From: a virus
IMG/VR virus record: IMGVR_UViG_3300043540_000173
Coordinates: 1 to 27,418 of that record
Strand: one strand, 5' to 3'
Length of the DNA: 27,418 nt
The notes under the pieces are model-generated. The model had not been told where the DNA came from, ran no database searches, and was given only the letters and a program-made list of their open reading frames with translations. Below are positions 124 through 22,870 of this stretch, one piece after another. A program made the translations under genes and the position numbers. Every line of letters starts with the position of its first letter. Position 1 is the first letter of the stretch.

Positions 124-444
124 ATGACGCATCGAGTCTTCCCCAGGGCTCAAGAGATGAATTCAATGGGACATCCGTCTAAACGGTATTGTCAGCATGC
201 CAGCCACATCCGAAGACATTTTCACAAATCCCTTGCCAAAGTAAGGCTTCCGAGGGTAAAATTCCATTCACTTAGACATTCCTACGCTTCTCTTCAGCTT
301 CTTTCCGGGACGCACCCGAAAGTCGTGCAGGAGGCTCTTGGACACAGCTCCATTGAACGGACGCTTGACACCTACTCGCACCTCCTTCCAAACTTTCAGA
401 AAGAAGCGGCGGACAAAATAGATAGCCTGTTTCGAAAACCGTAG
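124..444 (+). pseudogene. Truncated tyrosine recombinase (phage integrase), catalytic C-terminus only
   Basis: The 106-residue product carries the C-terminal catalytic signature of tyrosine recombinases: HSLRHSYAS (His48, Arg51), LGHSSIERT (His74) and the nucleophile region LDTYSHLL (Tyr84). Full integrases have about 350-400 residues. The arm-binding and core-binding domains and the first catalytic Arg/Lys are absent, and only 22 bases separate this gene from the sugar kinase stop. It therefore looks like a deletion remnant rather than a working enzyme. The stretch after the first Met (VFPRAQ...GHP) resembles the region just before the HxxR motif in full-length homologues, so the reading frame itself is intact. 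It lies on the chromosomal side of the tRNA, so it probably belongs to an earlier integration event at this tRNA and not to the prophage on the right. Confidence 0.8.
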
Positions 445-551: not shown

Positions 552-624
552 GCCCCCGTAGCTCAACGGACAGAGCGCCTGACTTCGGATCAGATGGTTG
601 TGAGTTCGAATCTCGCCGGGGGCG
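552..624 (+). tRNA. tRNA-Arg (anticodon TCG)
   Basis: The cloverleaf can be drawn by hand. The acceptor arm is 552-558 GCCCCCG paired with 617-623 CGGGGGC. The D-arm is GCTC/GAGC. The anticodon loop is CTTCGGA, with T33 and anticodon TCG reading CGA (Arg). The T-arm is GTGAG/CTCGC around TTCGAAT. The discriminator base is G624. The outermost anticodon-stem pair is a C-A mismatch. CCA is not encoded: the next bases are CCT. The 3' end faces the phage-like genes, the normal geometry for a tRNA 3'-end attachment site. No second copy of the tRNA 3' end is present in the window. Confidence 0.95.
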
Positions 625-741
625 CCTATATATAAGGATTATTGCATCTAAATACCTGATATATAGGGGGTTAAGTCTTCCTTATAAACCAATAGTAGCA
701 ATAACCGTAGCAATTGTAAAATTTGCCTCGCACAATAATTT
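625..741. other. Junction between tRNA and element: candidate att flank with repeats
   Basis: This non-coding stretch begins directly after the tRNA discriminator base. It holds a 9-bp inverted repeat (CCTATATAT at 625-633 and ATATATAGG at 659-667) and two direct copies of GTAGCAAT (695-702 and 707-714) spaced 12 bp apart. Direct repeats at about one helical turn beside a tRNA are compatible with integrase or excisionase arm sites, but this is inference. No T-tract terminator is visible for the minus-strand genes that end at 742. Confidence 0.4.
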
Positions 742-5176: not shown

Positions 5177-5870
5177 TTCTCAATGGATAGCTTTCGCCAT
5201 CCCCTCCCCAAATATAGATAGGCTCGGTTATCTGCTTGCCATACGGCACGGAGAGAAAAGTCTGATAATCACAAAACATAAATTTCTCTCCAGCCTTTAG
5301 CTCTTTGATAAACTTTTTGATTTCTTCTCTTGGAGCGTCAATCACAAATAGAACAAATCCATCCTCGCCAAATTTAGAAACCAAGTCATCAAGGTTATTT
5401 TGGTAGCGGGTAATTTTGCTTTTAAAAACCGCTCTCCTTTTGAAGTTGTCCTTTGTGCAGAATTCAAAAAACATTAGTCTTTTATTCGGGTATAAAATTG
5501 CCCATTCAGGGACCATTTGATGTCCTCTGAGATACCTTTCAGCAATCAGCTCACAATTTGGATCAGATACGCAAAATCTGACTAAGGCTTCTGTGCAAGC
5601 TAATCCGTGTTCAATGGTCGGGTAATACTCGTTTCCTGATATTCGCTTTCTGTTTTTTCTTAAGGCGCAATAGACCAACTTCTTGCCGTAATAAGTGGCG
5701 GAGAGTTTTCCTTTCCTCACAAGTCTGGGTAACATTGTCTCTGTCCGTCTGTGGCGTTCAATTTTCTTAGTCAACATCAGGATATAATGCTCTTTTGTTG
5801 CCCAGTGAAAAACTTGTGATAATTCTAGGTATCGTTCTTTGGGTATGGTGCGCATTGTTTTTTTCTCCAT
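5169..5870 (-). CDS. Replication-relaxation family protein (Replic_Relax-like)
   Basis: The product has 233 residues. The N-terminus (about 10-70) is a winged helix with ERHRRTETMLPRLVRKGKLSA and a YYGKKLVY wing. Next come HGLACTEALVRF (about 88-99) and a nuclease-like core MVPEWAILYPNKRLMFFEFCTKDN (about 118-141), followed by a helix with KSKITRYQNNL. This series (HTH, His-rich helix, then D/E...FE-x-CT...K..Y) is that of the replication-relaxation family, found on plasmids and integrative elements of Gram-positive-type bacteria and linked to plasmid DNA relaxation. It is coupled by overlap to the VirD4-like ATPase, which supports a shared DNA-processing job. ATG 5855, preceded by GGAG, is an alternative start five residues in. 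Confidence 0.7.
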   Translation of the reverse strand: MEKKTMRTIPKERYLELSQVFHWATKEHYILMLTKKIERHRRTETMLPRLVRKGKLSATYYGKKLVYCALRKNRKRISGNEYYPTIEHGLACTEALVRFCVSDPNCELIAERYLRGHQMVPEWAILYPNKRLMFFEFCTKDNFKRRAVFKSKITRYQNNLDDLVSKFGEDGFVLFVIDAPREEIKKFIKELKAGEKFMFCDYQTFLSVPYGKQITEPIYIWGGDGESYPLRNA

Positions 5871-8818: not shown

Positions 8819-9676
8819 TCACCTCCCTAAAATACGCATAGTGATTGCCGTAATCAATTCTGAAAGGGGTATCTTATTCAAGACGTCTATATTATCGTCT
8901 TTAAGTCGTTTAATTTCATCATCTTTGGCTAGTATAGCGGCTTGTGCCTTTTCCAACTCCTTCTGTGTTCTTTCAAGTGTTATATTTGTAAGTCTTAATT
9001 GATATTCAAATTCGTCTTTCGCTTTGTTTGCGTCATTTAACGCTTTCTTTAAGTCTTCTTTTTCTCCTTCCAGTTTTTCTACTTTTTCTGTCAACATAGA
9101 AACTTCTGTGAATTTAGGCCCAACTATTTCATTCAGTCTTTTAATTTGTTCACGAAGGTCGGTAATATCTTTGTCATATTTAATTGCCTTTTCCCAAAAG
9201 TCACGAAACTCTCCTTCCCTATCAAGGGACAAACCTCGCTCTTGAAGCAATGTTTTGAACCATTCGGGTATTTCCATAGATTTAATTATCGGTTTTAGCC
9301 AGCCCAAAACTCCTGTATAAGTATGCTCCTGTATATGACATAGTGTTCCTGTCGGGTAGTTCTGGTCAAAGCTCTTAAACTTCTTTGTATCTCCTTCTAA
9401 AAAGATAGCAACGTGTCCATACTTACCTATTTTCGTTCCCCAAATTACAATGTCTCCTTTTTCAGGCACTCCGTATGGCGTGTTCTCAATTCTCTTGTAA
9501 TACTCGGGTAAATATGTATCCCAAATATCTTTAGCTCCCTCAACTGGCGGGCTTTGAGGAAAGCCCAAGACTTCCTTGACATATTGCCGATATAGATCAG
9601 TACATTGGGTTGAGAACTTATTGTCATAGTCAATCCCCTTGCCGTTGTATTTTTCGACAAATTCATCAAGTGTCAT
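8819..9676 (-). CDS. CHAP-domain endolysin with C-terminal coiled coil
   Basis: The product has 285 residues from ATG 9676. That start is favoured because it overlaps the stop of the small gene upstream as ATGA; an in-frame GTG at 9712 is less likely. Residues 1-140 form a CHAP amidase/peptidase domain: the nucleophile Cys25 in FSTQCTDLYRQYV, the catalytic His88 in KYGHVAIF, and a polar third residue in FDQNYP (Asp104/Asn106). It would cut peptidoglycan peptides during lysis. From about 165 to 265 the protein is a long coiled coil instead of the SH3 or LysM wall-binding domain usual in CHAP endolysins. It could therefore multimerise, or be a virion-associated hydrolase. Confidence 0.85.
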   Translation of the reverse strand: MTLDEFVEKYNGKGIDYDNKFSTQCTDLYRQYVKEVLGFPQSPPVEGAKDIWDTYLPEYYKRIENTPYGVPEKGDIVIWGTKIGKYGHVAIFLEGDTKKFKSFDQNYPTGTLCHIQEHTYTGVLGWLKPIIKSMEIPEWFKTLLQERGLSLDREGEFRDFWEKAIKYDKDITDLREQIKRLNEIVGPKFTEVSMLTEKVEKLEGEKEDLKKALNDANKAKDEFEYQLRLTNITLERTQKELEKAQAAILAKDDEIKRLKDDNIDVLNKIPLSELITAITMRILGR

Positions 9677-12561: not shown

Positions 12562-12595
12562 AAGCGTTTACACAACGCTTTTATTGATTATAACA
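12562..12595 (-). promoter_or_regulatory. Extended -10 promoter with 5'-terminal stem-loop leader (tail fibre)
   Basis: On the minus strand, TGTTATAAT (-10 hexamer at 12587-12592) is followed, after CAATAA, by AAGCGTT-GTGTA-AACGCTT (12580 down to 12562). This is a perfect 7-bp stem whose last base is immediately before ATG 12561. The expected start site is about 12580, so the entire untranslated leader would be the stem-loop. No Shine-Dalgarno is present. The promoter overlaps the end of the preceding gene. Confidence 0.75.
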
Positions 12596-12597
12596 AA

Positions 12598-12780
12598 TCA
12601 AGATTTTGTTTTAAAACTCCATTTAGTCGCTTCCTCTTGAGAAATCAAAACCATATTCTCACTATTGCCAACCAATATTTGTTTGCCGTCGTGAGTGAGA
12701 ATACGGGTTCGTTCAAAGGTAGTTGGTATCTTCGACTTATTTTGAGAGGAAGATGATGTTTTTGTTTTGTTTGTCCACAT
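12598..12780 (-). CDS. Small virion-region protein (60 aa)
   Basis: The product has 60 residues. The N-terminus is Lys/Thr/Ser-rich and disordered (TNKTKTSSSSQNKSK). The rest is a compact beta pattern (RILTHDGKQILVGNSENMVLISQEEATKWSF). It starts at ATG 12780 inside the stop of the gene upstream (TAATG), so translation is coupled to that head gene. It ends just before the tail-fibre promoter. Function is unknown; position suggests a small head or fibre-attachment part. Confidence 0.6.
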   Translation of the reverse strand: MWTNKTKTSSSSQNKSKIPTTFERTRILTHDGKQILVGNSENMVLISQEEATKWSFKTKS

Positions 12781-13121
12781 TAGAATTCAACAATTTCCGT
12801 ATAAATTGAAACAGAACTTGTAATCCCAGTTCCTCCAGCAGGTGCAGTAACATCAACAGTATCATCTTCCAAGAGAATTACTTCTCCATTAGGGACATAT
12901 ACCGTATATCTAGCGTTTGCAGAGCCAGTGCTTAAAACCGTATCGTATGCAGCTCCAGCCCCAGAGTTTAAAGTCACAGTAACTCCGCTGTGAGTTGGAG
13001 TATTAGAATAAGCCACTAGCACCTGCAAAAGCCTCCTCACTGCTCCAGTAGGAGTAGATACGGTTTGAGCCGTATTTGCAGCTGATGTTCCGACTGTTCT
13101 TTGTTTACTTCCTCTACTCAT
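12780..13121 (-). CDS. Small beta-rich structural protein, head decoration candidate
   Basis: The product has 113 residues from ATG 13121, which follows a strong AAGGAGGTGG; an upstream GTG at 13130 overlaps that site and is rejected. The chain is rich in Val, Thr, Gly and Ala with alternating hydrophobic residues (RRLLQVLVAYSNTPTH, VTVTLNSGAGAAYDTVL, ARYTVYVPNGEVILLEDDTV, SSVSIYTEIVEF). This is typical of a jelly-roll or Ig-like phage structural fold. It lies two genes downstream of the major capsid protein and one after the other beta-rich head protein. A capsid decoration or head-fibre role is inferred. Confidence 0.6.
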   Translation of the reverse strand: MSRGSKQRTVGTSAANTAQTVSTPTGAVRRLLQVLVAYSNTPTHSGVTVTLNSGAGAAYDTVLSTGSANARYTVYVPNGEVILLEDDTVDVTAPAGGTGITSSVSIYTEIVEF

Positions 13122-13185
13122 ATTTACCACCTCCTTTTTGACTGTTTATTTCTGTCCCGATTGACGGGACAGAGTAAGCAGTCAA

Positions 13186-13584
13186 CTAGCTATTGACCGC
13201 CCTGATAATGGCAAAATTTATCGTCATTGCGGCGTTCAAAGCAGTTGATGCGTGAAGGTTGGTAATAACAACCTTAAATGAGCCATTAGCCACGCCTTTA
13301 ACCGACACAGCTGGTGTTCCAGCACCGCCATAAGTAGTTGAAACAACCACAACATCGGTAGCTTTGACTTTATCATTATTTACGGTAAATTCTTCCTCAG
13401 CACCAGCAGCGGTTGTCAAGGCAACAGTTGTAATTTGCCCTGCATACTTATTGATGGTGACAGGCGTTGATGCTGAAGTTGTCTGTGTTACAGTCCCTCC
13501 AACATTTTTACCAGCAATAAAACCGAGAGATTTTCCAACCTCAAGGTCGCCATAAACTCGTAATCCTCTATTTAGTATTTTCAT
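13186..13584 (-). CDS. Capsid-associated beta-rich protein (head decoration-like)
   Basis: The product has 132 residues. The block GKNVGGTVTQTTSASTPVTINKYAGQITTVALTTAAGAEEEFTVNNDKVKATDVVVVSTTYGG, then NGSFKVVITNLHASTALNAAMTINFAIIRAV, is a pattern I have often seen in short phage proteins encoded directly after the major capsid gene. It forms a beta-sandwich-like structural protein. It would coat or stabilise the capsid surface. ATG 13584 has only a weak upstream AAAGGG, which lies within a hairpin. The 138-bp gap between this gene and the capsid gene is packed with stem-loops, so its dosage relative to the capsid may be set there. Confidence 0.6.
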   Translation of the reverse strand: MKILNRGLRVYGDLEVGKSLGFIAGKNVGGTVTQTTSASTPVTINKYAGQITTVALTTAAGAEEEFTVNNDKVKATDVVVVSTTYGGAGTPAVSVKGVANGSFKVVITNLHASTALNAAMTINFAIIRAVNS

Positions 13585-13596
13585 AGTTTTTTACGA

Positions 13597-13712
13597 GAGC
13601 CCTTTTAAAAAGGGTCTTACCTCTTTTTGTCTCACCCCCTTTCGCTTAGTGAGGAGATAATGACGCTTATCTCCTCTAAAGCGAGTCTAGGTTGAGTTAC
13701 AAACCCCTAGAC
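13597..13712 (-). repeat. Three consecutive stem-loops between major capsid and decoration genes
   Basis: On the minus strand, transcription out of the capsid gene meets three structures. The first is GTCTAGG/CCTAGAC (13685-13691 with 13706-13712). The second is a long hairpin in which GAGGAGATAA (13651-13660) pairs perfectly with TTATCTCCTC (13667-13676) around a 6-base loop, extended by TCGCTT/AAGCGA (13642-13647 with 13679-13684). The third is CCCTTTT/AAAAGGG (13600-13614), just upstream of ATG 13584. None has a U-tract. They could be processing sites, 3'-end stabilisers for capsid mRNA, or partial attenuators. Confidence 0.65.
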
Positions 13713-13722
13713 CAGGGTTCGT

Positions 13723-14880
13723 TTAAAAGCCGCTTACATCCTGCTCGAGTTTTACAGCCAAGACCGCTCCATCGTCAAACATCTTAGCTCCAACTCCGAT
13801 GATACCTTTCGGCAAATCGGCGAAGCCTTTTTCTTTGTCGGCGACTTTGAGGTCAACAAACTGCAAAACCAAGTCGATAGCCCCTCGGATCATAAAGACG
13901 GCTTGCTGTTTCTGGTTTGTCCAACCATCAGCAGAGGCAGTCAGAGTTTCGCTGACTGATATATCACCAAAGCCTGTGAAGGCCATAGCAGCATCAGCTG
14001 TGCAGCGAACATATCTCTTTCTCCTCAGGATAAACTTATCCCTAATGCTGAGGTCAACATAAGTTAAACCAGCTCCAGAGCCACCTTCTACTGCAGCCTT
14101 CAAGTTTGCTCTTGAAGCAGCAGCGTTAGCACCAATCAGGACATTGCCAGGAGTTGTACCCAAAGTAGATACGAAAGTGAATTTGACGCCAGAAATCGTT
14201 ACGGTATCTCCGTTGGTTGGATTAGTGGCAATGTTCAATGTGGCGCTCCAGGGAAGGTTGTTGTTTTCAACAACAGTCCAACCCATCCAAGGTCCGACGA
14301 CACCGTTTTCCAGTGTCTCGTCTCCGAGTCGGCTCTCTCTGTCAGCTTTAGCCCTCCTCAGTTTTGCAACTGTTCTTGGGCCAAGAACTGCAGCCCTTAG
14401 AGAAGTCTCATAAGGGGCATCGAATGCACCGAGCTTACCTTCTGCCTCCTCAAGGATATCAAGGATATTTGCACTCGTAACAGTTACAGGCGAACCTGAA
14501 ATCGAGTGGAAGGCATTGGAGATTTGACCCATATAAACCTGCTCCACTCTGTTCATCAAACCTCTGCGGATTGATTCAAGAGAGTGATTGAGTAAGTCAT
14601 ATGGAGTCTGATTTTTCTCGGTGATGTCGATCTCCTCAGCAGCGTATTCGAATGTATCAACCTCAAGAGTTTGCTTTGAAGCCTTCTTTTGGTCGAATGT
14701 AATATCGTTGTGAGGAGTATAAGTTCCAGTCTGCGGATGAGAGAGAATCGGCTTGTGAGCCTTGCGACCATCCTGACGGATTATGTTTTCGAGCGACTGG
14801 TTAGCCAAATACACAGCAGTATTAGCCGTGTATAGATCGGCTTGCAGATCACCCCAAAACTCTTGTCTTATGTCATCCAT
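13723..14880 (-). CDS. Major capsid protein (HK97-fold type) with inserted beta domain
   Basis: The product has 385 residues. The N-terminal region (1-130) has acidic helices followed by VEQVYMGQISNAF. Residues 140-210 (ILDILEEAEGKL.AFDAP....RAAVLGPRTVAKLRR...) read like the long-helix and core segments of phage coat proteins. Residues about 215-320 are an inserted beta domain: GDTVTISGVKFTFVSTLGTTPGNVLIGANAAASRANLKAAVEGG is a recurring decoration-type insert. The core resumes at about 325 (QAVFMIRGAIDLVLQFVDL) and ends with GFADLPKGIIGVGAKMF.DGAVLAVKL. It follows the scaffold gene and has GGGGGTGA before the ATG. The shell-building role is inferred from position, size and fold pattern. Confidence 0.75.
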   Translation of the reverse strand: MDDIRQEFWGDLQADLYTANTAVYLANQSLENIIRQDGRKAHKPILSHPQTGTYTPHNDITFDQKKASKQTLEVDTFEYAAEEIDITEKNQTPYDLLNHSLESIRRGLMNRVEQVYMGQISNAFHSISGSPVTVTSANILDILEEAEGKLGAFDAPYETSLRAAVLGPRTVAKLRRAKADRESRLGDETLENGVVGPWMGWTVVENNNLPWSATLNIATNPTNGDTVTISGVKFTFVSTLGTTPGNVLIGANAAASRANLKAAVEGGSGAGLTYVDLSIRDKFILRRKRYVRCTADAAMAFTGFGDISVSETLTASADGWTNQKQQAVFMIRGAIDLVLQFVDLKVADKEKGFADLPKGIIGVGAKMFDDGAVLAVKLEQDVSGF

Positions 14881-14905
14881 ATTTTCTATTTTTCACCCCC
14901 TTTCA

Positions 14906-14935
14906 AAATTACTCAATTTTAAAAATTGAGGTCAA
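14906..14935 (-). promoter_or_regulatory. Candidate capsid promoter with a 19-bp palindrome in its spacer
   Basis: On the minus strand, TTGACC (14930-14935) and TAATTT (14906-14911) are 18 bp apart. The spacer and its edge hold CTCAATTTTTAAAATTGAG (14912-14930), a 19-bp palindrome with one central base. A repressor bound there would block RNA polymerase; alternatively, transcribed as RNA, it would fold into a 7-bp hairpin. The start site would fall just before the GGGGGTGA of the capsid gene. AT-richness lowers the significance. Confidence 0.4.
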
Positions 14936-14971
14936 ACTAATTTTGTAAAGTAAGAGAGGTGATTTTGGGGT

Positions 14972-15673
14972 TTACTGCTTCTGTTGAGCTAGATACTTTT
15001 GCCTCGCAGCCCTTGCTTCCTTCCAGGCTTTAATGCCTTCCTCAGTGTTAAAGTCAAAATCCGCAGGATTCAAAGGCTTTGAGGGATCATAATTCATAGC
15101 ATACGACCCCTTGTTTGAGCGCTTAGGAGTTGCGTTTTTTATCCGCTCTTCCCTTTCAATTTCTTCCTTTCTCGCTTGGATATAAGGAAGTTGCGCTGCC
15201 TCTCTTACAGAAATACCTTTTAATTTTGCTAAATCTTTGACTTCGGCTTTCAGCTCGTCAGGTAAAGCAAGTTCTTCAAGTTCTCTTGCCTCCAAACGCT
15301 CCGCAAGCTTCTTTTCAATCAAAGATTCAATGTCAGGTGTTTCCTGTGTTTGGGTGTTACCCTCCTTAGGATTTTCCTTCGGTTTCTCGGAAGCTTTTAG
15401 GGCTTTTTCTCTCCAGTTAATCTTTTGCTTAATCGCTCCAGATAACTTTTCCCTGTAAGATTTTTCCCTTTCGACGAGTTTGTCAAGAAGCTCGCTTTGT
15501 TCCTCAGGGTCTATCCCTAATTCCCCAGCGATTTTACTTCTGATCTCGTCTTCAGCCACTTCCTTTTGAAACTCCTTGTCGGCTTCTAGCTCTTCAGGAG
15601 TTACTTTTAAATCTTCTTCTTTATTCTGTTGTGTTTGATCGTCCATAGGACCAAATTTTTGCCAGTATGGCAT
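14972..15673 (-). CDS. Capsid scaffolding protein
   Basis: The product has 233 residues. It is very rich in Glu and Lys, helical and coiled-coil throughout, with Pro/Glu/Thr-rich breaks (about 105-115). It includes SELLDKLVEREKSYREKLSGAIKQKINWREKALKA and LEARELEELALPDELKAEVKDLAKLKGISVREA. A short C-terminal part with DYDPSKPLNPADFDF is followed by the basic stretch EARAARQKYLAQQKQ, as expected for the coat-binding end of scaffolds. Its position directly before the major capsid gene is the usual one. ATG 15673 has no Shine-Dalgarno; a small hairpin touches it, and an intrinsic terminator lies 21 bp upstream, so expression may need read-through or antitermination. Confidence 0.75.
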   Translation of the reverse strand: MPYWQKFGPMDDQTQQNKEEDLKVTPEELEADKEFQKEVAEDEIRSKIAGELGIDPEEQSELLDKLVEREKSYREKLSGAIKQKINWREKALKASEKPKENPKEGNTQTQETPDIESLIEKKLAERLEARELEELALPDELKAEVKDLAKLKGISVREAAQLPYIQARKEEIEREERIKNATPKRSNKGSYAMNYDPSKPLNPADFDFNTEEGIKAWKEARAARQKYLAQQKQ

Positions 15674-15685
15674 CTACATAAGTAG
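15674..15685 (-). repeat. Small hairpin abutting the scaffold start codon
   Basis: On the minus strand CTAC-TTAT-GTAG immediately precedes ATG 15673, and the A of the ATG can add a fifth pair. The sequence differs from the AGCGTT-type stems at three other starts, but the arrangement (hairpin touching ATG, no ribosome-binding site) is the same. A 4-5 bp stem alone is weak evidence. Confidence 0.4.
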
Positions 15686-15693
15686 AAATCAAA

Positions 15694-15717
15694 TCAAAAA
15701 ACCGCCCTTTGGCGGTC
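15694..15717 (-). terminator. Intrinsic terminator upstream of the scaffold gene
   Basis: On the minus strand ACCGCC-AAAG-GGCGGT (15716 down to 15701) is a perfect 6-bp GC-rich stem with a 4-base loop. It is followed by a run of T (overlapping the stem end) and then GATTT. This is a textbook Rho-independent terminator oriented to end the leftward transcript starting near 15802. Confidence 0.9.
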
Positions 15718-15802
15718 AAGTCGGGGAGCAAGAAAGCGTTGTGACGAACTTGCACCCCTACTAAACCGTCAAGCTTCACAACGCTTTCTATGTCAATTTG
15801 CT
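15694..15802 (-). ncRNA. Putative small RNA or attenuated leader with 14-bp arms
   Basis: A transcript from the extended -10 promoter at 15809-15817 would start near 15802 and end at the terminator at 15694-15717, giving about 105 nt with no convincing reading frame. Its main structure is a perfect 14-bp stem (15776-15789 with 15731-15744). Inside it, after an internal loop, CTTG/CAAG pairs around a 17-base apical loop containing GTAGGGGTG. The 3' arm includes CACAACGCTTT, an 11-base perfect complement of the leaders at 12562-12580 and 22834-22855. It may act in trans on those mRNAs, or in cis as an attenuator of the scaffold/capsid operon. No known RNA family is recognised. Confidence 0.6.
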
Positions 15803-15808
15803 GATTTA

Positions 15809-15817
15809 ATTATATCA
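15809..15817 (-). promoter_or_regulatory. Extended -10 promoter of the putative small RNA
   Basis: On the minus strand TGATATAAT (hexamer at 15809-15814) matches the extended -10 consensus perfectly. It is the same as the boxes upstream of the 22831, 18913 and 12561 genes. There is no good -35 at 17 bp; a TTGACA lies too close. It lies just downstream of the stop of the preceding gene. Confidence 0.7.
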
Positions 15818-15822
15818 GATTG

Positions 15823-16206
15823 TCAAGACAAATGAAACACATATCCACAAGACGGACATCTGATACCTTCTTCAACAAATTTCATTTCAACTCTATAATC
15901 ATTTTTCTTTGCAAATTCCTCTGCAAGTTTTGCCCACTTCTCTCCGTGCATCTCTAACGAGTATCTTCTTACTTCCCTTCCTTCTTTGTTTATAATAACT
16001 GCTGTATTGTAAGAAACCTCTTTGGCGGGAGCAGTCGCTTCGGGTTCACTAGACATTTTTTCTGATTGAGCTAGTGCCTCATCGTTAGCCACCACATCGC
16101 TAGAGGCTTCTTTCTCTTTTATTGCTTTTTCAAGGTCTGAACGGGAGACACCAATGTAAGGAAGTCCAAGCTCTTTGGCTTTTTTCTGAAGGTCTTTATA
16201 ATCCAT
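15823..16206 (-). CDS. SAP/Rho-N-like protein with C-terminal zinc knuckle
   Basis: The product has 127 residues. Residues 1-32 (YKDLQKKAKELGLPYIGVSRSDLEKAIKEKE) match the helix-extended-loop-helix of SAP/HeH/Rho-N domains, common in small phage proteins encoded near the capsid genes. The middle (35-60) is low-complexity Ser/Glu/Ala. The C-terminal part is a folded region with YNTAVIINKEGREVRRYSLEMHGEKWAKLAEEF, ending CPSCGYVFH, a single CxxC plus His. Head-tail joining or nucleic-acid binding is possible. ATG 16206 has no ribosome-binding site; TTGACA and TATAGA lie upstream with 15-bp spacing as a weak promoter. Confidence 0.6.
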   Translation of the reverse strand: MDYKDLQKKAKELGLPYIGVSRSDLEKAIKEKEASSDVVANDEALAQSEKMSSEPEATAPAKEVSYNTAVIINKEGREVRRYSLEMHGEKWAKLAEEFAKKNDYRVEMKFVEEGIRCPSCGYVFHLS

Positions 16207-16226
16207 ACTGGTTGTAGTCTATAACT

Positions 16227-16358
16227 TCAAGATACCTTTGTCAATACTATCTTTTGCTCTTTTTTGCTTAGCTTTTTAAAAGCATTCTTAGCCATCTTGT
16301 AAGGCACACCATATTTCTTAGCTTCTTTGCGAAGTAGTTTGTATACTTTTCCACTCAT
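16227..16358 (-). CDS. Tiny basic protein (43 aa)
   Basis: A 43-residue frame, MSGKVYKLLRKEAKKYGVPYK..., contains 14 Lys residues and is helical. Its ATG overlaps the stop of the preceding tiny gene as ATGA. It may bind nucleic acid given its charge, but no family is recognised. Support comes mainly from the chain of stop/start overlaps. Confidence 0.5.
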   Translation of the reverse strand: MSGKVYKLLRKEAKKYGVPYKMAKNAFKKLSKKEQKIVLTKVS

Positions 16359-16498
16359 AGGCCATAGAATTTAGACACCTTTTTTCTCCTCTCTTCCCTT
16401 TCCCGTTTGATTTTTTCTCTCGGATCGGGATTTTGTGCTTTTCTGATTGCCTCTTCAAGCCAAGCACGGATTTGTTGTTTAGTCGCTTCGTTGCTCAT
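16355..16498 (-). CDS. Tiny charged helical protein (47 aa)
   Basis: A 47-residue frame, MSNEATKQQIRAWLEEAIRK..., is one long charged helix with KIKRERERRKK-like Arg/Lys/Glu repeats near the end. It overlaps both neighbours by ATGA junctions (16495-16498 and 16355-16358), the best evidence that it is translated. Function is unknown. Confidence 0.5.
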   Translation of the reverse strand: MSNEATKQQIRAWLEEAIRKAQNPDPREKIKREREERRKKVSKFYGL

Positions 16499-16644
16499 TT
16501 TCTCTTGTTCTCAGCCGCATATCTTGCCCTGACACTTGCCTCAGCTTTAGCCTTAGTCGTAGAAGAACCAACCACTTTACCAGTTGTAGTTTTGACAATT
16601 TTCCAAGGTCTTGAGCCTGAGCGTTTTACAACCTTCCAAGGCAT
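16495..16644 (-). CDS. Small conserved-type phage protein (49 aa)
   Basis: The 49-residue product reads PWKVVKRSGSRPWKIVKTTTGKVVG, then TTKAKAEASVRARYAAEN. A short W.VVK...GK+V pattern followed by a KA.A..RA.YA helix is typical of a small protein often found among phage packaging genes. The internal repeat PWKVVK/PWKIVK is notable. ATG 16644 has GGGGGTGA upstream. The stop overlaps the next gene as ATGA. Confidence 0.65.
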   Translation of the reverse strand: MPWKVVKRSGSRPWKIVKTTTGKVVGSSTTKAKAEASVRARYAAENKRK

Positions 16645-16660
16645 ATTTATCACCCCCTAT

Positions 16661-16924
16661 TTACAAGCCAAACTTTTCTTCGGCTTTTTTGATTTCTTCG
16701 TCTGTTGGCTCTCTTTTTCCTCTAAATTCAATAAAAGGTTTTAAAATCTCATTCAGCCTGTCTTTAACCTTGCTTCTGATTTTGGCTTCTTCCCCTGCTT
16801 GTTCGTTTGATAGATTTTCCAAACCATTAACCGTATCTATTTCTTCTATTTTTTCAAGGACATAATTCAGAAACTCAATGAAGGCTGGGTCTGACTTTAG
16901 CTTTTTTATGAGGTCGTCATCCAT
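16661..16924 (-). CDS. Small acidic helical protein after the terminase
   Basis: The product has 87 residues and is all helix, with an acidic N-terminus (MDDDLIKKLKSDPAFIEFLNYVLEKIEEIDTVNGLENL) and RSKVKDRLNEILKPFIEFRGKREPTDEEIKKAEEKFGL at the end. No motif is recognised. It is preceded by its own candidate promoter whose expected start site is about two bases before the ATG, so the mRNA may be leaderless, and no ribosome-binding site is present. It lies between terminase and scaffold, where small packaging or head-completion helpers are common. Confidence 0.6.
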   Translation of the reverse strand: MDDDLIKKLKSDPAFIEFLNYVLEKIEEIDTVNGLENLSNEQAGEEAKIRSKVKDRLNEILKPFIEFRGKREPTDEEIKKAEEKFGL

Positions 16925-16932
16925 ATACTAAT

Positions 16933-16962
16933 ATAATATCAAACCATATTTAAAAAGTCCAA
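16933..16962 (-). promoter_or_regulatory. Promoter with TTGGAC / TGATATTAT, probably leaderless
   Basis: On the minus strand TTGGAC (16957-16962) and TATTAT (16933-16938) are 18 bp apart, with TGA forming an extended -10. The ATG at 16924 begins only 8 bases after the -10, so the start site should be at or within two bases of the initiation codon. Confidence 0.6.
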
Positions 16963-17000
16963 TTTAGCCTCAATAGGGTAGGGTAGAGGTAGTAGGGAAG

Positions 17001-17022
17001 TGCGGGGAAGTGTTTTCCCGCA
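17001..17022 (-). repeat. Stem-loop just after the terminase large subunit gene
   Basis: TGCGGGGAA (17001-17009) pairs with TTTTCCCGCA-type bases at 17014-17022, a 9-bp stem with one G-T pair and the loop GTGT. It begins 12 bases past the terminase stop. There is no U-tract on the minus strand, so it is probably not an intrinsic terminator. Confidence 0.5.
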
Positions 17023-17034
17023 TAATTAACGCAT

Positions 17035-18528
17035 TCACAATCCATAGTTTTTTTGAATAATACCCTTTCTTGCTTCTCTTTGTTGCCTTAATACCGCTTG
17101 TTTATACTCGTCAATCGGTGCTTCTGCTATCTCAAGTTGCATTGCTAAACTATCAAGCGTGTCATCGTGTGCTCCTTTAGGAAAAACTACCATTTCTTTC
17201 TCTAAATCTCCGCATTCTCCTTCAATGTGGAAAATTCCTCCTGAAGCGTAGCGTGGTATAAGCCCTCTAATCCTTACCTCTTTTTGAGTCTTGTTGTGTT
17301 TTAATGGCACTATGTTTGGAAACTTATCTCGCCTTAAACATTCCTCATCTAAAAATGGTTTAATTGCTTTCAAGTAAACTGTCTCCTCAATTCCGATTTT
17401 CTCAAATCCTTCATCGTGCAAAGCGAAGATATAATTTATCAGCTCTTTTGAGTCAAAATGCACTCTCATTGCTTTTAAATTCCATTTATTTTGTTTATCA
17501 ACATAATTCCTGACAATTCCTGTATAGTCATTGTCTGCTTCTTTTCCACCTGGGTCGATTGTGGCAAATTTACGGGTATCTAAAGCCTCAACCTCAGCCC
17601 AAGACCGATATTTTATCCAAGTCTCTTTGAATTCTTGATTTTCTGAAGTAATAGGTGTGCCTTGATACAAAGCTGAAAACTCATAAGGTCCAAGAGTGCT
17701 TTCTGTTCTCCTTATCTTCTCAATGGGAAACTTTTCTGGCCATAATGCTTCCCCTTTTTTCCTAAAAGTCTCATCTTCAGTTGCAATTGCAGGAAAGTTG
17801 ATAATCTTCCATTTATCATAATTTTCAGTATCTTCTGCCTCATCCTGTTTTTGCTTTTCAATTAGTCTCCCCACAAGGTCATCGGTGTGCCAGCGGGTGT
17901 TGATAACAATAATTGCAGTTGCACCTTCTTGTCGGGTATAGAAAGTAGAGCGAAACCAATCCCACCTTGAATTACGGATCACTTCCGACTCTGCTTCCTC
18001 TCGGTTCTTGAAAATATCATCAACTATCCCAATCTTAAAACCTGAACCAGTAAAAGCACCTCCAGCACCAGTAGCCATATAGCTTCCACCTTCTCCTGTC
18101 TTCCAATATCCTTTTGCTTTGGTATCAGCTCTTAATCGAGTTGAAAATATTTTCTGGTATTGAGGCGTTTGCATTACATCTCTTGTCTCTTGACCAAATT
18201 TAGTGGCAAGCTCTCCTGAGTAAGAGGCTACAATAATCGGCCAATCGGGATGGTGGCCAAGAACCCAAGCGGGAAACTTGATGGTGGCTATGTTGCTTTT
18301 TCCGTGCCGTGGTGGACATTGAATGATAATTCTTGCATCTTCTCCCCTCTCTACTTTCTCAAGAGCAGATTGCAAGATAGTAGCCAACGACTCGTGAAAC
18401 CAAGTATCCTGATAATTGCGGTCTATGGCTATCGCAAAATCAATCAGATTTTTCTTTGCTTGATGTATTACTATCGCCTCGCCCTTTTGCAAGGATACGC
18501 TCGGCGATTCTTTGGATTTGTTTTTCAT
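17035..18528 (-). CDS. Terminase large subunit
   Basis: The product has 497 residues and is the ATP-driven DNA packaging motor and nuclease. ATPase domain: Walker A-like CPPRHGKSN (71-79), Walker B GIVDD (167-171) and the coupling-type motif NTRWHTDDLV (210-219). RNase H-like nuclease domain: Asp325 in FATIDPGG, Glu381/Glu382 in GIEETVY and Asp455/Asp456 in HDDTLDSLA. Length is normal for the family. ATG 18528 lies well inside the 3' end of the small-subunit gene (89-bp overlap) and has no ribosome-binding site. A TTG at 18531 precedes it. Translation may therefore be coupled, or the true start may be an unusual codon downstream. Confidence 0.95.
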   Translation of the reverse strand: MKNKSKESPSVSLQKGEAIVIHQAKKNLIDFAIAIDRNYQDTWFHESLATILQSALEKVERGEDARIIIQCPPRHGKSNIATIKFPAWVLGHHPDWPIIVASYSGELATKFGQETRDVMQTPQYQKIFSTRLRADTKAKGYWKTGEGGSYMATGAGGAFTGSGFKIGIVDDIFKNREEAESEVIRNSRWDWFRSTFYTRQEGATAIIVINTRWHTDDLVGRLIEKQKQDEAEDTENYDKWKIINFPAIATEDETFRKKGEALWPEKFPIEKIRRTESTLGPYEFSALYQGTPITSENQEFKETWIKYRSWAEVEALDTRKFATIDPGGKEADNDYTGIVRNYVDKQNKWNLKAMRVHFDSKELINYIFALHDEGFEKIGIEETVYLKAIKPFLDEECLRRDKFPNIVPLKHNKTQKEVRIRGLIPRYASGGIFHIEGECGDLEKEMVVFPKGAHDDTLDSLAMQLEIAEAPIDEYKQAVLRQQREARKGIIQKNYGL

Positions 18529-18913
18529 CAAAGGTATGGGTTATTTCCCCTTTTAGTTTTGTCTCCTCCTCCATTCCGTGATTTGCAGACAAAATTAGTT
18601 TGGTGATGGTTGGGTTATAGTATCCTGCTAATCCTTCGTCTATCAGTCGCTGAAATTGCTCTTGTTTTATCAGTTCCAATCCCTTTGCTACTTTAGGGTG
18701 AGCTTCTTCCCAATTAAATAGTGTTTGTTTGGTAACGCCCAAAAAACGAGCAAAGCCTTCAATTGTTGGAAGTTTTACTCTGAGACGGACAACGGGAGAG
18801 TGCTTGCCATCCCTCACAACTTCAGTCTCGTCTTGTCGTGAAGCAAGGTATTTTTCTACTTTTTTGAGAAATGTCTTACTGTTGAATTTTGTTGGTCTGC
18901 CACCTTTTTTCAT
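18440..18913 (-). CDS. Terminase small subunit
   Basis: The product has 157 residues. The N-terminus is basic (KKGGRPTKFNSKTFLKKVEKYLASR). Residues 50-75 hold a helix-turn-helix (LPTIEGFARFLGVTKQTLFNWEEAHPKVAKGLELI), which would recognise the packaging site. A helical middle (GLAGYYNPTITKLILSANHGMEEETKLKGEITHTFDEKQIQRIAERIL) is typical of terminase small subunits, including the NP-TKLILSAN-GM motif. It lies directly before and overlaps the large-subunit gene. ATG 18913 is touched by a stem-loop leader with an extended -10 promoter. The product forms a ring that loads the large subunit onto DNA. Confidence 0.9.
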   Translation of the reverse strand: MKKGGRPTKFNSKTFLKKVEKYLASRQDETEVVRDGKHSPVVRLRVKLPTIEGFARFLGVTKQTLFNWEEAHPKVAKGLELIKQEQFQRLIDEGLAGYYNPTITKLILSANHGMEEETKLKGEITHTFDEKQIQRIAERILAKGRGDSNTSSKEKSD

Positions 18914-18964
18914 AGCGTTATGCTGGGTTTGATAACCTTTCCAACGCTTTAGTCTATTATAGCA
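18914..18964 (-). promoter_or_regulatory. Extended -10 promoter with stem-loop leader (terminase)
   Basis: On the minus strand TGCTATAAT (hexamer 18956-18961) is followed, after AGACTA, by AAGCGTTGG near the expected start site (about 18949). The 5' AGCGTT (18943-18948) pairs with AACGCT (18914-18919), which immediately precedes ATG 18913. The 23-base loop has an inner GGTT/AACC hairpin and contains GGAAAGG. This is the long-loop version of the leaders at the 12561 and 22831 genes. Confidence 0.7.
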
Positions 18965-18997
18965 AATCTGTTCTAATTGTGCTAAAGTATTCTTGAT

Positions 18998-19183
18998 ATG
19001 GGAGACTTATTGAAGTTGCTAATTTTCCTCTTTGTCTTTGCTCTTGCATTTGTCATTTTAAAACTTCTAAGGAAGATTAAAGGCTGGGATAAACTTGTCG
19101 GCACGAGACCGTGGTATAAAGATATTTGGAAAACAATCTCATTTCTTGCCTTTCTTCAACTTGTGCGATATTTAATCAAGTAG
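18998..19183 (+). CDS. Small plus-strand membrane protein (61 aa)
   Basis: The 61-residue product has a strong N-terminal membrane span (LLKLLIFLFVFALAFVILKLL), a basic/aromatic middle (RKIKGWDKLVGTRPWYKDIW) and a second weaker span (ISFLAFLQLVRYLI). It lies on the strand opposite all other virion genes and neatly fills the 270-bp gap between the terminase promoter and the 3' end of the 730-residue gene; its stop is 2 bp from that gene's stop. There is no clear ribosome-binding site. TGCTAAAGT upstream could be a weak extended -10 giving a leaderless mRNA. It could be a superinfection-exclusion or lysogeny gene, or spurious. Confidence 0.45.
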   Translation: MGDLLKLLIFLFVFALAFVILKLLRKIKGWDKLVGTRPWYKDIWKTISFLAFLQLVRYLIK

Positions 19184-19184
19184 T

Positions 19185-21377
19185 CTATTTATAAAGTCCT
19201 ACTCCGATAAGTGATGGGTCAATGCCGTAGCGTTGTGCCAAGCCTTGATAGTATGCGTCTATTGGAGCTTGTCGCTGTTGATGAACCTGAAAAACTCGTT
19301 CTGCCTCTTTTCTATATGCTGCTCTCTGAGCTGGGGTTAGCCGATCTCCTTTAAGAGCTTTGTTATACTGCAGTCTGATTTTTTCAGGAATACCAGCTGT
19401 ATTTTCAGCCGTTGCAAATTCACCTTCCCTAACCACACTTCCAGGATCAAGTAACTTCATAAAAGCAAAGATGAGCGAAACATCACCAGCAGCCGTATCG
19501 GTGGTGTTGATAACTTTGTTATAGGCATTAACAATATCAAGCCAACCATTTTCTTGAGTCCTCTTAAAGTATTCGGTTCGTAGAGTATCAGCAATCTTCA
19601 TATTCTCCTCACTGACTACACTATCATCTGAAGCAAGCATATCGTAGATTTTTCCTACTTCTTCTAGATCTTTGGTTGATGCTCCGTTGGTGAGAGCTAA
19701 AGCTAAAACCTGTCTTTTTGTCAACCCGCCAAAAGGATTTAGTGGGTTTGGTTTGTTTGAAAGTGATGTAGTTATCTGTTCTTCAACTGGTGTTGTAGTA
19801 GGAAGCAGATTTTGTTTTAGTTCCTCAACTTTTTGAATATCACTATCGCTTAATCCTTGTTCCTTTAGTGCAGCAGGCGTCAATGCAGCCAACTTCTCAA
19901 GAGTAGACTTCTGAAGTGCTTCTCCCTCTGGTAGTTTTTCTACACCTAGACCTATTTTCTTTAAGACTGCTTGGCCCAAATCTCTTAATTTCTGAGTAAT
20001 TGATGCAGGGACAGAAGTTCCTGCCACTCTAAATGTTGGCGGGTTAAATCTTGCAGAGGCTAAAGGTTGAGCTGCACGATAGAGATTGCTTTCGTCCAAA
20101 AGAAGCTCTTTTATTTCAGGAGACACATCTTTTATTGCCTCATCAAGACTATCCCAAGCCGCTGCAATTACCTTCTCACGGGGATTGAGTGATGAGCCAT
20201 TTTCTATCTTTTTAAAAACACTTGCATAGTCTTGATTGAGAATTTTCTTCATCTCCCGCAAGGTAGAAAGTGGTATTTCTTTTACCCCACTTTTTACCAG
20301 TTCTTGACCAGTTGCACCTTCAGCTCCTTTAGCTGCCATCAGTAAATCGTTGAGATAGCCGTTAATTTCGTTTATGGCTTGTTTTTGAGTTAAATCCCTT
20401 GTTCTCAAAGAGCTTTTGAGGTTGTCCATAAAAGCGTCTTTGATTTTGTCGGCTGATACTGATAAGTCTGGGTTCTTCTGAATAAAATCTTGAATTTTGT
20501 TTTCTACCTCATTCAAGGTTGGTTCTAGCATCTCGTATTGTTTTTGTGCCGAACCTTTAAAGCCATATTTATTAAGGGTTTCGTTTATAGCTTGCTCTTG
20601 CTTTGCCCCAAAAACTGATGGCTTTACCTTAATTTTTCTTGTGTCTTCAGCTAACTTTTCACTTTGCCTGATGATTTCCCCATTTTTTCCTTTTACCCAA
20701 GAAAGCATACCACCAACGCCTTCAATTGCACCTGCAGTCAACGCCCCCGACACACCAGATTCGAGAACAGACTCAGGTGTTGCTCCTTCTTTTGACGCCT
20801 CAAACAATGCCCCTGAAGCAAAGCCAGGAATAAACACTTTAGACATTAAAGATGTTCCTTCTCCAAACGGGATAGCGTAAGACGCAGCACCAGCAGTAGC
20901 TTTTGCTCCAGTTATAGCAATTTTTCCCCTGTCTGATAGTTTTTTCTGCGCTTCTTCTTCAGAATAGAATAAAGTTGCTTTTTGCGAGGCTAATTTCTTT
21001 TCTTCTTCTGGTGTTAGTTTTTCTCCTAAAACAGCTTTCCTGAACAGTGGGTCAAAAGCAAATCTTCCAGCCTGATAGCCTGCTTCCCCCACAAACTTGC
21101 CATATTCAATTGCTGGTTGGACAAGATTTTTTATGAAGTTGACAATAAATCCGCCACTTTCTCCGCCAGTAACATCTCCGACTTGTGTTTGGGTTTTTGA
21201 TGGTGCAGAAGGTGCAGAAACAGTCCCCATTGTGGTGGTATTTGCCTGAGCCAATGGTGAAGTTGTTCCTTCAAATTCCCTTGCTTTCTTTTCAATTTCT
21301 TGTCTTATTTGGTCATCAGTAAGACCAGCTAGTCTTGCTCGCCTTGTAAATTCTGCTATCTGTTGTTCGGTTAGCAT
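19185..21377 (-). CDS. Large internal virion / DNA-ejection protein candidate
   Basis: The product has 730 residues, mostly helical, with Gly/Ala-rich hydrophobic stretches at about 155-225 (GAKATAGAASYAIPFGEGTSL, GFASGALFEASKEG, GVSGALTAGAIEGVGGML). These resemble the membrane-active parts of podovirus ejection proteins. The C-terminal 100 residues contain AAGDVSLIFAFMKLLDPGSVVREGEFATAENTAGIPE.., RLTPAQRAAY, then a helix. The LDPGSVVREGEFATA motif recurs in phage internal or ejection proteins. ATG 21377 follows a strong GGGGGG-type site. Such proteins leave the virion first and form a conduit across the envelope. No lytic transglycosylase motif is seen, and a tape-measure role is less likely because tail-tube genes are absent. 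Confidence 0.65.
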   Translation of the reverse strand: MLTEQQIAEFTRRARLAGLTDDQIRQEIEKKAREFEGTTSPLAQANTTTMGTVSAPSAPSKTQTQVGDVTGGESGGFIVNFIKNLVQPAIEYGKFVGEAGYQAGRFAFDPLFRKAVLGEKLTPEEEKKLASQKATLFYSEEEAQKKLSDRGKIAITGAKATAGAASYAIPFGEGTSLMSKVFIPGFASGALFEASKEGATPESVLESGVSGALTAGAIEGVGGMLSWVKGKNGEIIRQSEKLAEDTRKIKVKPSVFGAKQEQAINETLNKYGFKGSAQKQYEMLEPTLNEVENKIQDFIQKNPDLSVSADKIKDAFMDNLKSSLRTRDLTQKQAINEINGYLNDLLMAAKGAEGATGQELVKSGVKEIPLSTLREMKKILNQDYASVFKKIENGSSLNPREKVIAAAWDSLDEAIKDVSPEIKELLLDESNLYRAAQPLASARFNPPTFRVAGTSVPASITQKLRDLGQAVLKKIGLGVEKLPEGEALQKSTLEKLAALTPAALKEQGLSDSDIQKVEELKQNLLPTTTPVEEQITTSLSNKPNPLNPFGGLTKRQVLALALTNGASTKDLEEVGKIYDMLASDDSVVSEENMKIADTLRTEYFKRTQENGWLDIVNAYNKVINTTDTAAGDVSLIFAFMKLLDPGSVVREGEFATAENTAGIPEKIRLQYNKALKGDRLTPAQRAAYRKEAERVFQVHQQRQAPIDAYYQGLAQRYGIDPSLIGVGLYK

Positions 21378-21403
21378 ATTTCCCCCCTTTCTAAATTATA
21401 TAC

Positions 21404-22831
21404 TTATGAATTAGTCATTTTCCAGCCGTTGACGGTATAAATCCATTTTTTACCAGTTGAGTCTTTCCATACTGTGCCAACACCGCCAGCAGGTGAAAAT
21501 GCAGGTGCGCCTGCCATCGTTCCTATTGAATTGCCAAACACCTCATCCCATATAAGGTCTACATTGACTTGTGGAATTTTTGTTTCCGTTGTCGTTGGCG
21601 TTCCTCCGCTTACTTTGTATCCTGCTTCCCTAAGTTTATCTCTTAAGAACGAGGTTGTATCAAAGCTACTTTCTCCAGTAACTGCTTTCCTGTAATAGTA
21701 TTTGTTCCCTTTGCTGTCTGTAATCGTAATAAGTTGATTTTGAGGAACACTTTTGGGATCAACGACGGCAACATATCCCGAGGTTGACATTTTATTTGAT
21801 AAATCTCTGACTTCATTAGCGTATTGAACATCGGCAAGTTTTTTGTTGACTGTTTCTATACTATCGTTGAGCGTTACTCCTGATTGAGCCAACAGTAGGG
21901 CTGTATCAGGATTAACCATCAATTGCTTGATATAATCTGCTGTTTTAGTGGTCTGCTCTAGGTCAAACTTGAGTAGATTGATTTGTTCTTTTGCTACTTC
22001 TTGACTCTTGTTATCAAGATTAATAATGTCTCGGTTTGCTAAATTTAAAACTGTATCATAGTAAGCTAGTCTATCTTTTCTATCCTGAGCTATTGCGTTT
22101 ACCGACCTATCTATTGATTGATAGGCATTTGCAAGATAAGTATTTTGCAGGCTTACTACAGCATTAATAACTCCTGCTCGTGCCGCAATGTCGTCCATTG
22201 TCTTTTGGATGCGTGGGTTACGGATTGCAGCCAAGCCTGTCACTTCTTTTTGTTGTCTGATAAGTTGATTTCCTTCTGTTAAGAGTTGATCTAATTCGTC
22301 TAAAAGTTGTCTTTGTTGAGATAAAACTACATCCGTTCCTAATCTTTCCCTTTCTGTTTTTTCTAAAGTTTCCCTAAATGGGGTTGTCAAGGTGCTTACC
22401 CCCTGCACAGCCTCAGCTTCTCTTTTCTTTGCTGCTTCAAGTTCGGCCTGCGTTTGAGCTTGGTCTTGTGCAAGTCTTTGCTCTAAGGCTTTCCTTGCAG
22501 CTTCAACTTCGGCATTTAATCCTGAAACATAATTTTGTGTTGAGCCCGTGATATAAGATGGAGTTACAGGAGCTTGAATGTTGGCTACACTCACTTTGTC
22601 CAAGTAGTCATTGAATTGTTGAAGTGAAACACCTTGAGCTGCAGCAGATTGAGCTTTTACTTCCTGCGAAACCGCTTGTCCTGCTCCTTGTTGGTTGGAC
22701 CAAGGATGAATAACACCTGGATCTGAAAACGTCCCATTCCAATATTGACGGCCTTGATACCATCCCCCTGTTTGAAAACCACCTGCTGGAGGTTTTATTC
22801 CCAATTGTTCTGGTGTGTAAATTCCCGACAT
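21404..22831 (-). CDS. Coiled-coil virion protein, second ejection-protein candidate
   Basis: The product has 475 residues. The N-terminus is Gly/Pro/Gln-rich (about 1-60). The centre (about 100-330) is a long Ala/Gln/Glu coiled coil (EVEAARKALEQRLAQDQAQTQAELEAAKKREAEAV; then LDELDQLLTEGNQLIRQQKEVTG). The C-terminal region (about 340-475) is globular with SKGNKYYYRKAV and a terminal DSTGKKWIYTVNGWKM. Paired with the 730-residue gene downstream, it fits the podovirus pattern of two or three internal proteins, but no sequence family is recognised. It has its own extended -10 promoter, and a stem-loop ends two bases before the ATG without a ribosome-binding site. Confidence 0.6.
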   Translation of the reverse strand: MSGIYTPEQLGIKPPAGGFQTGGWYQGRQYWNGTFSDPGVIHPWSNQQGAGQAVSQEVKAQSAAAQGVSLQQFNDYLDKVSVANIQAPVTPSYITGSTQNYVSGLNAEVEAARKALEQRLAQDQAQTQAELEAAKKREAEAVQGVSTLTTPFRETLEKTERERLGTDVVLSQQRQLLDELDQLLTEGNQLIRQQKEVTGLAAIRNPRIQKTMDDIAARAGVINAVVSLQNTYLANAYQSIDRSVNAIAQDRKDRLAYYDTVLNLANRDIINLDNKSQEVAKEQINLLKFDLEQTTKTADYIKQLMVNPDTALLLAQSGVTLNDSIETVNKKLADVQYANEVRDLSNKMSTSGYVAVVDPKSVPQNQLITITDSKGNKYYYRKAVTGESSFDTTSFLRDKLREAGYKVSGGTPTTTETKIPQVNVDLIWDEVFGNSIGTMAGAPAFSPAGGVGTVWKDSTGKKWIYTVNGWKMTNS

Positions 22832-22833
22832 AT

Positions 22834-22870
22834 GCGTTGTCTAACACAACGCTTTTATTAAATTATATCA
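22834..22870 (-). promoter_or_regulatory. Extended -10 promoter with 5' stem-loop leader (475-aa virion gene)
   Basis: On the minus strand TGATATAAT (hexamer 22862-22867) precedes TTAATAAAAGCGTTGTG. GCGTTGT and ACAACGC (22846-22852 with 22834-22840) form a perfect 7-bp stem with loop GTTAG. The stem ends two bases before ATG 22831. The expected start site is about 22855, two to three bases before the stem. No Shine-Dalgarno is present. Confidence 0.75.

Follow-up and report, generated by a model that had tools for sequence, protein, structure and literature searches.

The class III transcripts of T7 share a 5′ stem-loop, which is followed by a Shine-Dalgarno site and a spacer. The C4 antisense RNA of P1 and P7 and the CI RNA of satellite P4 are small RNAs derived from leaders that pair with complementary phage RNA, and they act on immunity/antirepressor or early leader functions. 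The gene 32 leader pseudoknot and the RegA operators of T4 control translation from within the mRNA, as structures or sites that lie at the AUG or further upstream, and a T4 review suggests that the gene 32 element may be the sole viral pseudoknot employed for translational autoregulation (PMC3014915). The HK022 put RNA is ∼70 nt long, consists of two stem-loops, belongs to early operons, lies near promoters, and acts on RNA polymerase (PMC9378689). Its effect is to suppress termination by way of the β′ zinc-binding domain of the polymerase. Known kinds of element include structured leaders, translational operators of phages (PMC3014915), and antisense leader RNAs. In a limited open-access literature search, we found no description of the combination reported here: many virion mRNAs with the same fixed 5′ end, stems at the start codon, and a capsid pseudoknot that holds the complement.

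The window analyzed is the whole of IMG/VR virus record IMGVR_UViG_3300043540_000173 (27,418 bases), in which all leaders lie on the minus strand. As in T7 class III transcripts, a common hairpin stands at the late transcript 5′ ends, which are predicted here, but the stem meets the AUG and there is no Shine-Dalgarno site. The likeness to T4 gene 32 and RegA is that of a phage mRNA structure near the AUG; in contrast to them, one 5′ motif recurs across several late operons and its stem abuts the AUG, the capsid pseudoknot holds the complement of other mRNAs, and no gp32-like regulator is known. Like put, the elements are structured nascent RNA near phage promoters, but they consist of a single (sometimes nested) start-codon hairpin on late virion operons and do not have the put structure. 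Unlike the targets of C4 and CI, the candidate partners here are transcripts of late virion genes, and the sequence bears no relation to C4 or CI RNA (no such Rfam match in the window). We are confident that the elements described below constitute an RNA-level regulon of late (virion) operons.

A sequence-only reading of the window had claimed promoters, leaders, and stems before the genes that start at 22831, 18913, and 12561, and we found all of them in place and as described (leader spans by direct reading, 22870-22831, 18964-18913, and 12595-12561; Table 1). Upstream of AAAGCGTTG, these genes carry TGATATAAT-N6, TGCTATAAT-N5, and TGTTATAAT-N5, respectively. The loops measure 5, 23, and 5 bases and the gaps between stem and ATG 2, 0, and 0 nt, confirming the claim that loop length varies while contact with the ATG is kept; within the 23-nt loop of the terminase small-subunit leader, a hairpin GGTT/AACC is nested. 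The pattern TATAAT-N3-9-AAAGCGTTG has exactly three occurrences in the window, and a reversed-pattern control has none. In an IMG/VR scan with the same pattern, the combination of pattern, hairpin, and abutting ATG was found, among the matches listed, only in the window and in L004 (one lineage). Copies of AAAGCGTTG at a contig end (G001:52-60) and in G002 were set aside because they lie inside coding sequence and look like chance. PHROGs assigned the 18913 gene to the terminase small subunit and the 12561 gene to a tail-fibre protein, and returned no family match for the 475-aa gene. Homologous terminase small-subunit leaders occur in L004, L130, L131, L134, L147, and L173, and homologous tail-fibre leaders occur in L129, L004, L149, L159, L172, and L155. 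In L004, the terminase small-subunit leader sequence GTTGTGAAATGTT (14880-14896) resembles a universal 16S rRNA stretch, presumably by chance.

Table 1. Features of the late-operon leaders and the capsid leader in the window (z, hairpin stability relative to shuffles that keep the 5′ arm)
Feature	Position	Strand	Remark
Extended −10 TGATATAAT, 475-aa virion gene operon	22862..22870	-	
5′ leader of 475-aa gene (start 22831), begins AAAGCGTTGTG	22832..22855	-	z −4.7; homologous leader in L004
Stem in 475-aa gene leader, GCGTTGT/ACAACGC	22852-22846/22840-22834	-	ATG 2 nt further
Extended −10 TGCTATAAT, terminase small-subunit operon	18956..18964	-	
5′ leader of terminase small subunit (start 18913)	18914..18950	-	z −2.4; outer stem AGCGTT/AACGCT reaches ATG
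Extended −10 TGTTATAAT, tail-fibre gene	12587..12595	-	
5′ leader of tail-fibre gene (start 12561)	12562..12581	-	z −4.7; stem AAGCGTT/AACGCTT reaches ATG
Extended −10 TGATATAAT upstream of capsid leader	15809..15817	-	21 nt before AAAGCG
P1 5′ arm AAAGCGTTGTGA, sharing its motif with the three predicted mRNA 5′ ends	15776..15787	-	
P2 5′ arm GTAGGGGTGCAAG	15749..15761	-	In relatives can also pair with upstream CTCTGAC segment
P1 3′ arm TCACAACGCTTT, complement of late mRNA 5′ ends (predicted), within P2 loop	15733..15744	-	
P2 3′ arm CTTGCTCCCCGAC	15720..15732	-	
Intrinsic terminator CCGCCAAAGGGCGGTTTTTT, between pseudoknot and scaffold gene	15696..15715	-	Direct reading
Mini-hairpin GTCC-TAT-GGAC around likely scaffold start (ATG 15646-15644)	15641..15651	-	Stem covaries in relatives

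Relatives of the phage, about 45 viral contigs, were gathered through terminase and capsid alignments, and from ten phages we collected 31 leaders, each on a gene that opens a late operon (TerS, the 475-aa family, fibre, an ∼238-aa gene upstream of the portal, and others). Their common layout is a −10 box, usually about 6 nt, AAGCGTTGTG, and a hairpin toward the start codon. The distance from the −10 box to AAGCG is 6 nt in 17 of the 31 leaders and 25 have the TG extension; given this tight spacing and the extended promoter type, the motif should be the 5′ end of the late mRNAs. Compared with shuffles that keep the 5′ arm, the 31 hairpins have a mean z of −3.2, with p ≤ 0.05 in 24, and the stem runs up to the base preceding the start codon in 23 and to no more than 2 nt from it in 29. 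The 3′ arms are variable and contain many G-U pairs, as expected of RNA pairing. The 5′ arm is near-constant (12 deviations in 310 letters) and is thus conserved in sequence beyond the needs of pairing. In two p238 leaders AAGCGTTGTG is retained but no hairpin precedes the ATG, and their 5′ motif pairs with the coding sequence no better than shuffles do; a few other leaders form weak hairpins only.

A Shine-Dalgarno-like complement 5 to 15 nt before the start is present in 2 of the 31 leaders versus 30 of 97 other conserved genes. The earlier statement that most other genes use strong Shine-Dalgarno sites was thus not borne out, since only about one-third of them do. In relatives that lack the motif, the homologous late genes mostly have a TGnTATAAT-like box 5 to 7 nt before the ATG, and their mRNAs are predicted to be mostly leaderless. 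Because these homologues carry the same −10 type near the ATG, the hairpin leader, a folded stretch of 18 to 46 nt, appears to intervene between such a promoter and its start codon.

The three elements first noted are real, but a fourth and larger copy of the arms had been overlooked. It precedes the scaffold/capsid genes (15787-15733, minus strand), and its arms enclose 31 nt. A helix formed by GTAGGGGTGCAAG and CTTGCTCCCCGAC (P2) crosses the helix formed by AAAGCGTTGTGA and TCACAACGCTTT (P1), which makes the structure a pseudoknot. In an alignment of 14 sequences, whose kinship inflates this and every other covariation or swap test of the capsid leader, 87.4% of P1 and P2 cells were paired and 14 of 25 pairs had changed on both sides, a result matched by none of 500 shuffles, while slid structures were only 44 to 55% paired. 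P2 pairing was −20.2 kcal/mol within the same phage versus −12.6 kcal/mol when strands were swapped between these related phages (0/20000 permutations). A covariance model recovered L181 and L182, which were outside the training set, at 59 to 64 bits. Rfam covariance models at the gathering score identified only a tRNA-Arg in the window, and for the capsid leader the best Rfam E value was 0.32, with biologically irrelevant families. The capsid pseudoknot is therefore a new, well-covarying RNA family without an Rfam match, and its covarying helices lie in a 5′ leader, as in structured cis-regulatory leaders. An HDV-ribozyme-like topology was considered and dropped, as P1 is too long and Rfam gave no match.

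The P2 5′ strand can also take part in a local hairpin, CTCTGAC...GTTNGAG, which passes the swap test among these kindred sequences (0/20000); since the two structures share a strand, the capsid leader may be bistable. A classical attenuator, formed by the upstream TCTGAC segment and the 5′ half of the terminator, was rejected by the same kind of test (6948/20000). The near-identical phages L181 and L182 differ in the P2 5′ strand (9158-9245): L182 has an ∼20-bp perfect P2, while L181 has a weaker P2 and a stronger alternative hairpin, and the pair constitutes a natural test of a bistable leader. In about half of the phages, the capsid leader is followed by a T-run terminator, and in several this lies between the pseudoknot and the scaffold gene with little space for a second promoter. 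Seven capsid leaders have no T-run, so release of a small RNA would not be universal. The spacing from the −10 box to the motif is loose in capsid leaders, from 0 to more than 20 nt.

These comparisons uphold the view that the elements act as RNA rather than DNA: hairpins in relatives contact the start codon, differ in their loops, and contain G-U pairs, and the capsid pseudoknot covaries. The expected covariation in homologues was seen on the 3′ side and as wobble pairs in the leaders, and as double changes in the capsid leader. The RNA element proposed by the sequence-only reading is well supported, but the strongest one is the capsid leader with its complement, not the three hairpins. The 5′ arm, however, is conserved in sequence beyond the demands of pairing, and the motif changes jointly at separate loci of one phage.

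Such joint change is clearest in L181 and L182 (G019 and G020). Their P1 is AAAGCATTGTA/TACAATGCTTT, with two compensatory changes that leave the arms complementary, and their portal-like late gene has TATAAT-N8-AAAGCATTGTAGCCAATAG directly before the ATG, where the motif is also AAAGCATTGTA; the other late first genes of these phages (136, 238, and 434 aa) look leaderless. The joint change to AAAGCATTGTA in the capsid arms and at another late mRNA 5′ end suggests that the motif is read in trans. Likewise, a change of GTTGTG to GTTGTA is common to the fibre leader and both capsid arms of L172. In G008, the capsid arm GTTCACAGCGCTC and the terminase small-subunit mRNA start GAGCGTTGTGAAC form a 13-nt match with one G-U pair; the 5′ arm of that capsid leader has itself drifted to GAGCGCAACAT. 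The capsid 3′ arm is retained in G001, G005, and G008 despite decay of its own 5′ partner, and over all capsid leaders it deviates less than the 5′ arm (5 versus 16 of 150; Fisher p 0.02). It forms predicted duplexes with the other late mRNA 5′ ends in each of 10 phages, with energies from −12.6 to −22.7 kcal/mol. Natural matched pairs are AAGCGUUGUG with CACAACGCUU and AAAGCAUUGUA with UACAAUGCUUU. Complementarity has thus been kept through sequence change, as for an antisense RNA, in few independent cases. All 12 contigs with the pseudoknot also carry leaders, and none of the 8 contigs without it does, a pattern that, with at least three changes in pseudoknot presence on the capsid tree, comprises only one to three independent pseudoknot/leader pairs, too few for a test.

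We tentatively propose, with somewhat less than even confidence, that the capsid-leader RNA is the trans reader and that its antisense pairing with late mRNA 5′ ends remodels the start-codon hairpins. Late mRNAs would begin with the same ∼11 nt, (A)AAGCGUUGUG, which in cis would pair with a variable segment ending at the start codon to form a 5′-terminal hairpin without a Shine-Dalgarno site. The scaffold/capsid leader would carry the same 5′ sequence together with the long stem P2, whose loop would expose the exact complement, (U)CACAACGCUUU, for pairing either with its own 5′ end (the pseudoknot) or with the 5′ ends of other late mRNAs. The terminator behind the capsid leader would, probably and in many phages, release an RNA of ∼110 nt. 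This putative antisense RNA would capture the AAGCGUUGUG strand, open the hairpin that abuts the AUG, and so switch the virion genes together, with activation preferred over repression as the direction. In its full form, as an RNA-only late switch in which a small capsid-leader antisense RNA coordinates all virion operons of a Patescibacteria phage by strand exchange at the common 5′ end, opening start-codon hairpins on otherwise leaderless-type mRNAs, the proposal is slightly more doubtful. Most phages are explicable without trans pairing, the capsid loop fitting its own 5′ arm, often one base further. The capsid leaders without a T-run and the hairpin-less p238 leaders also argue against it, as does the small number of independent tree changes behind the co-occurrence of pseudoknot and leaders.

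The main rival is a phage or host protein that recognizes the leader hairpin or the AAGCGUUGUG helix in every late mRNA. By binding there, it would either repress or activate translation from the AUG next to the stem, the site serving as an autogenous or late-switch operator and the capsid pseudoknot being a stronger version of it; we regard this as a serious possibility, though one we would not expect to prevail. The sequence-conserved 5′ arm, the contact between stem and AUG, and the lack of a Shine-Dalgarno site all fit an RNA operator, for which T4 offers precedents in the gene 32 pseudoknot and in the RegA sites, which lie at the AUG or immediately before it (PMC3014915). Altered protein specificity can also drive concerted change, and a protein reading the duplex or the 5′ sequence would force it just as antisense pairing does. 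The better conservation of the capsid 3′ arm is, however, not predicted by duplex recognition. Nor did a binder stand out by gene presence or absence: among the families confined to element-bearing contigs is a small protein that resembles ribbon-helix-helix regulators, but the close kinship of these contigs confounds all such candidates. A small early ribbon-helix-helix-like protein that could be a regulator is encoded in four element-bearing phages (L004 3705-3926, L189 7863-8066, L192, and L188).

The remaining readings explain less. Action of the 5′ element on transcription, whether by modifying RNA polymerase in the manner of put or by attenuation that permits passage of a terminator such as the one behind the capsid pseudoknot, is unlikely. 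It would suit the position of the element at the predicted 5′ ends of late operons, the terminators that leave little promoter room before the scaffold gene, the alternative upstream pairing of the P2 5′ strand, and the likewise promoter-proximal location of put (PMC9378689). It leaves the start-codon contact of the leaders unexplained, terminator control based on TCTGAC fails the swap test, seven capsid leaders have no T-run, and put differs in its two stem-loops and length. Even less probable is that the hairpins merely shield late mRNA 5′ ends from decay. Stem-loops at 5′ termini protect mRNAs elsewhere, and the hairpins lie at or a few bases from the predicted 5′ end; protection would need neither a fixed sequence nor contact with the AUG nor concerted change between loci. 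We consider it very improbable that AAAGCGTTGTGA serves a late transcription factor as its DNA site and that the hairpins are incidental: the tight −10 spacing of most leaders would suit it, but variable arm spacing, G-U pairs, P2 covariation, and the loose spacing in capsid leaders argue against it.

A further structure surrounds the scaffold start codon, which at about 34 related loci, found by a search that took the best-scoring ATG and is therefore somewhat biased, stands in a mini-hairpin NNNC-UAU-GNNN. Its stem variants are GTCC/GGAC, GACC/GGTC, ATCC/GGAT, TACC/GGTA, GGGC/GCCC, GCCC/GGGC, TTCC/GGAA, and TATTC/GAATA, and it is found in relatives both with and without the pseudoknot. In L144, L149, L150, and L169, for example, a second small hairpin (GCCC-TAC-GGGC, with covarying versions) and then A-rich sequence precede the start-codon hairpin.

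The capsid protein has matches in two metagenome bins, one assigned to Candidatus Shapirobacteria (L172) and the other to Patescibacteria UBA924 (L173), and from the binning of these two we conclude that the host is probably a member of the Patescibacteria, bacteria of tiny size. A nucleotide-level search with the phage DNA gave no match, TerL had only distant matches among GenBank phages, and a genome scan with the portal protein found nothing. Searches of 374 genomes with the RNA model and of 380 with the capsid protein returned essentially only the known bin; L219, a 35-bit match from the genome search, is without the motif and was set aside. At 124-444 (plus strand), the window encodes the C-terminal part of an apparent tyrosine recombinase, adjoining a tRNA-Arg(tcg) at 552-626 (plus strand); this arrangement suggests an attachment site, and the phage is probably temperate. 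On the minus strand, a coupling-protein-like ATPase with a GRQGTGKT motif (3686-5176) lies beside a small basic protein (5169-5870). Both are conserved in G001, G003 to G005, and G016 and may be conjugation-like genes carried by a tailed phage.

Phages usually switch their late genes through proteins that act on transcription. Virion operons with one common 5′ RNA sequence, whose complement lies in the capsid leader, would, if true, be a different solution. The probable hosts are bacteria whose translation start is little studied, and relatives of the phage appear to use leaderless mRNAs. The natural concerted variants are ready-made tests of RNA-RNA versus RNA-protein recognition. Together, these findings point to an undescribed RNA system that controls virion genes together.
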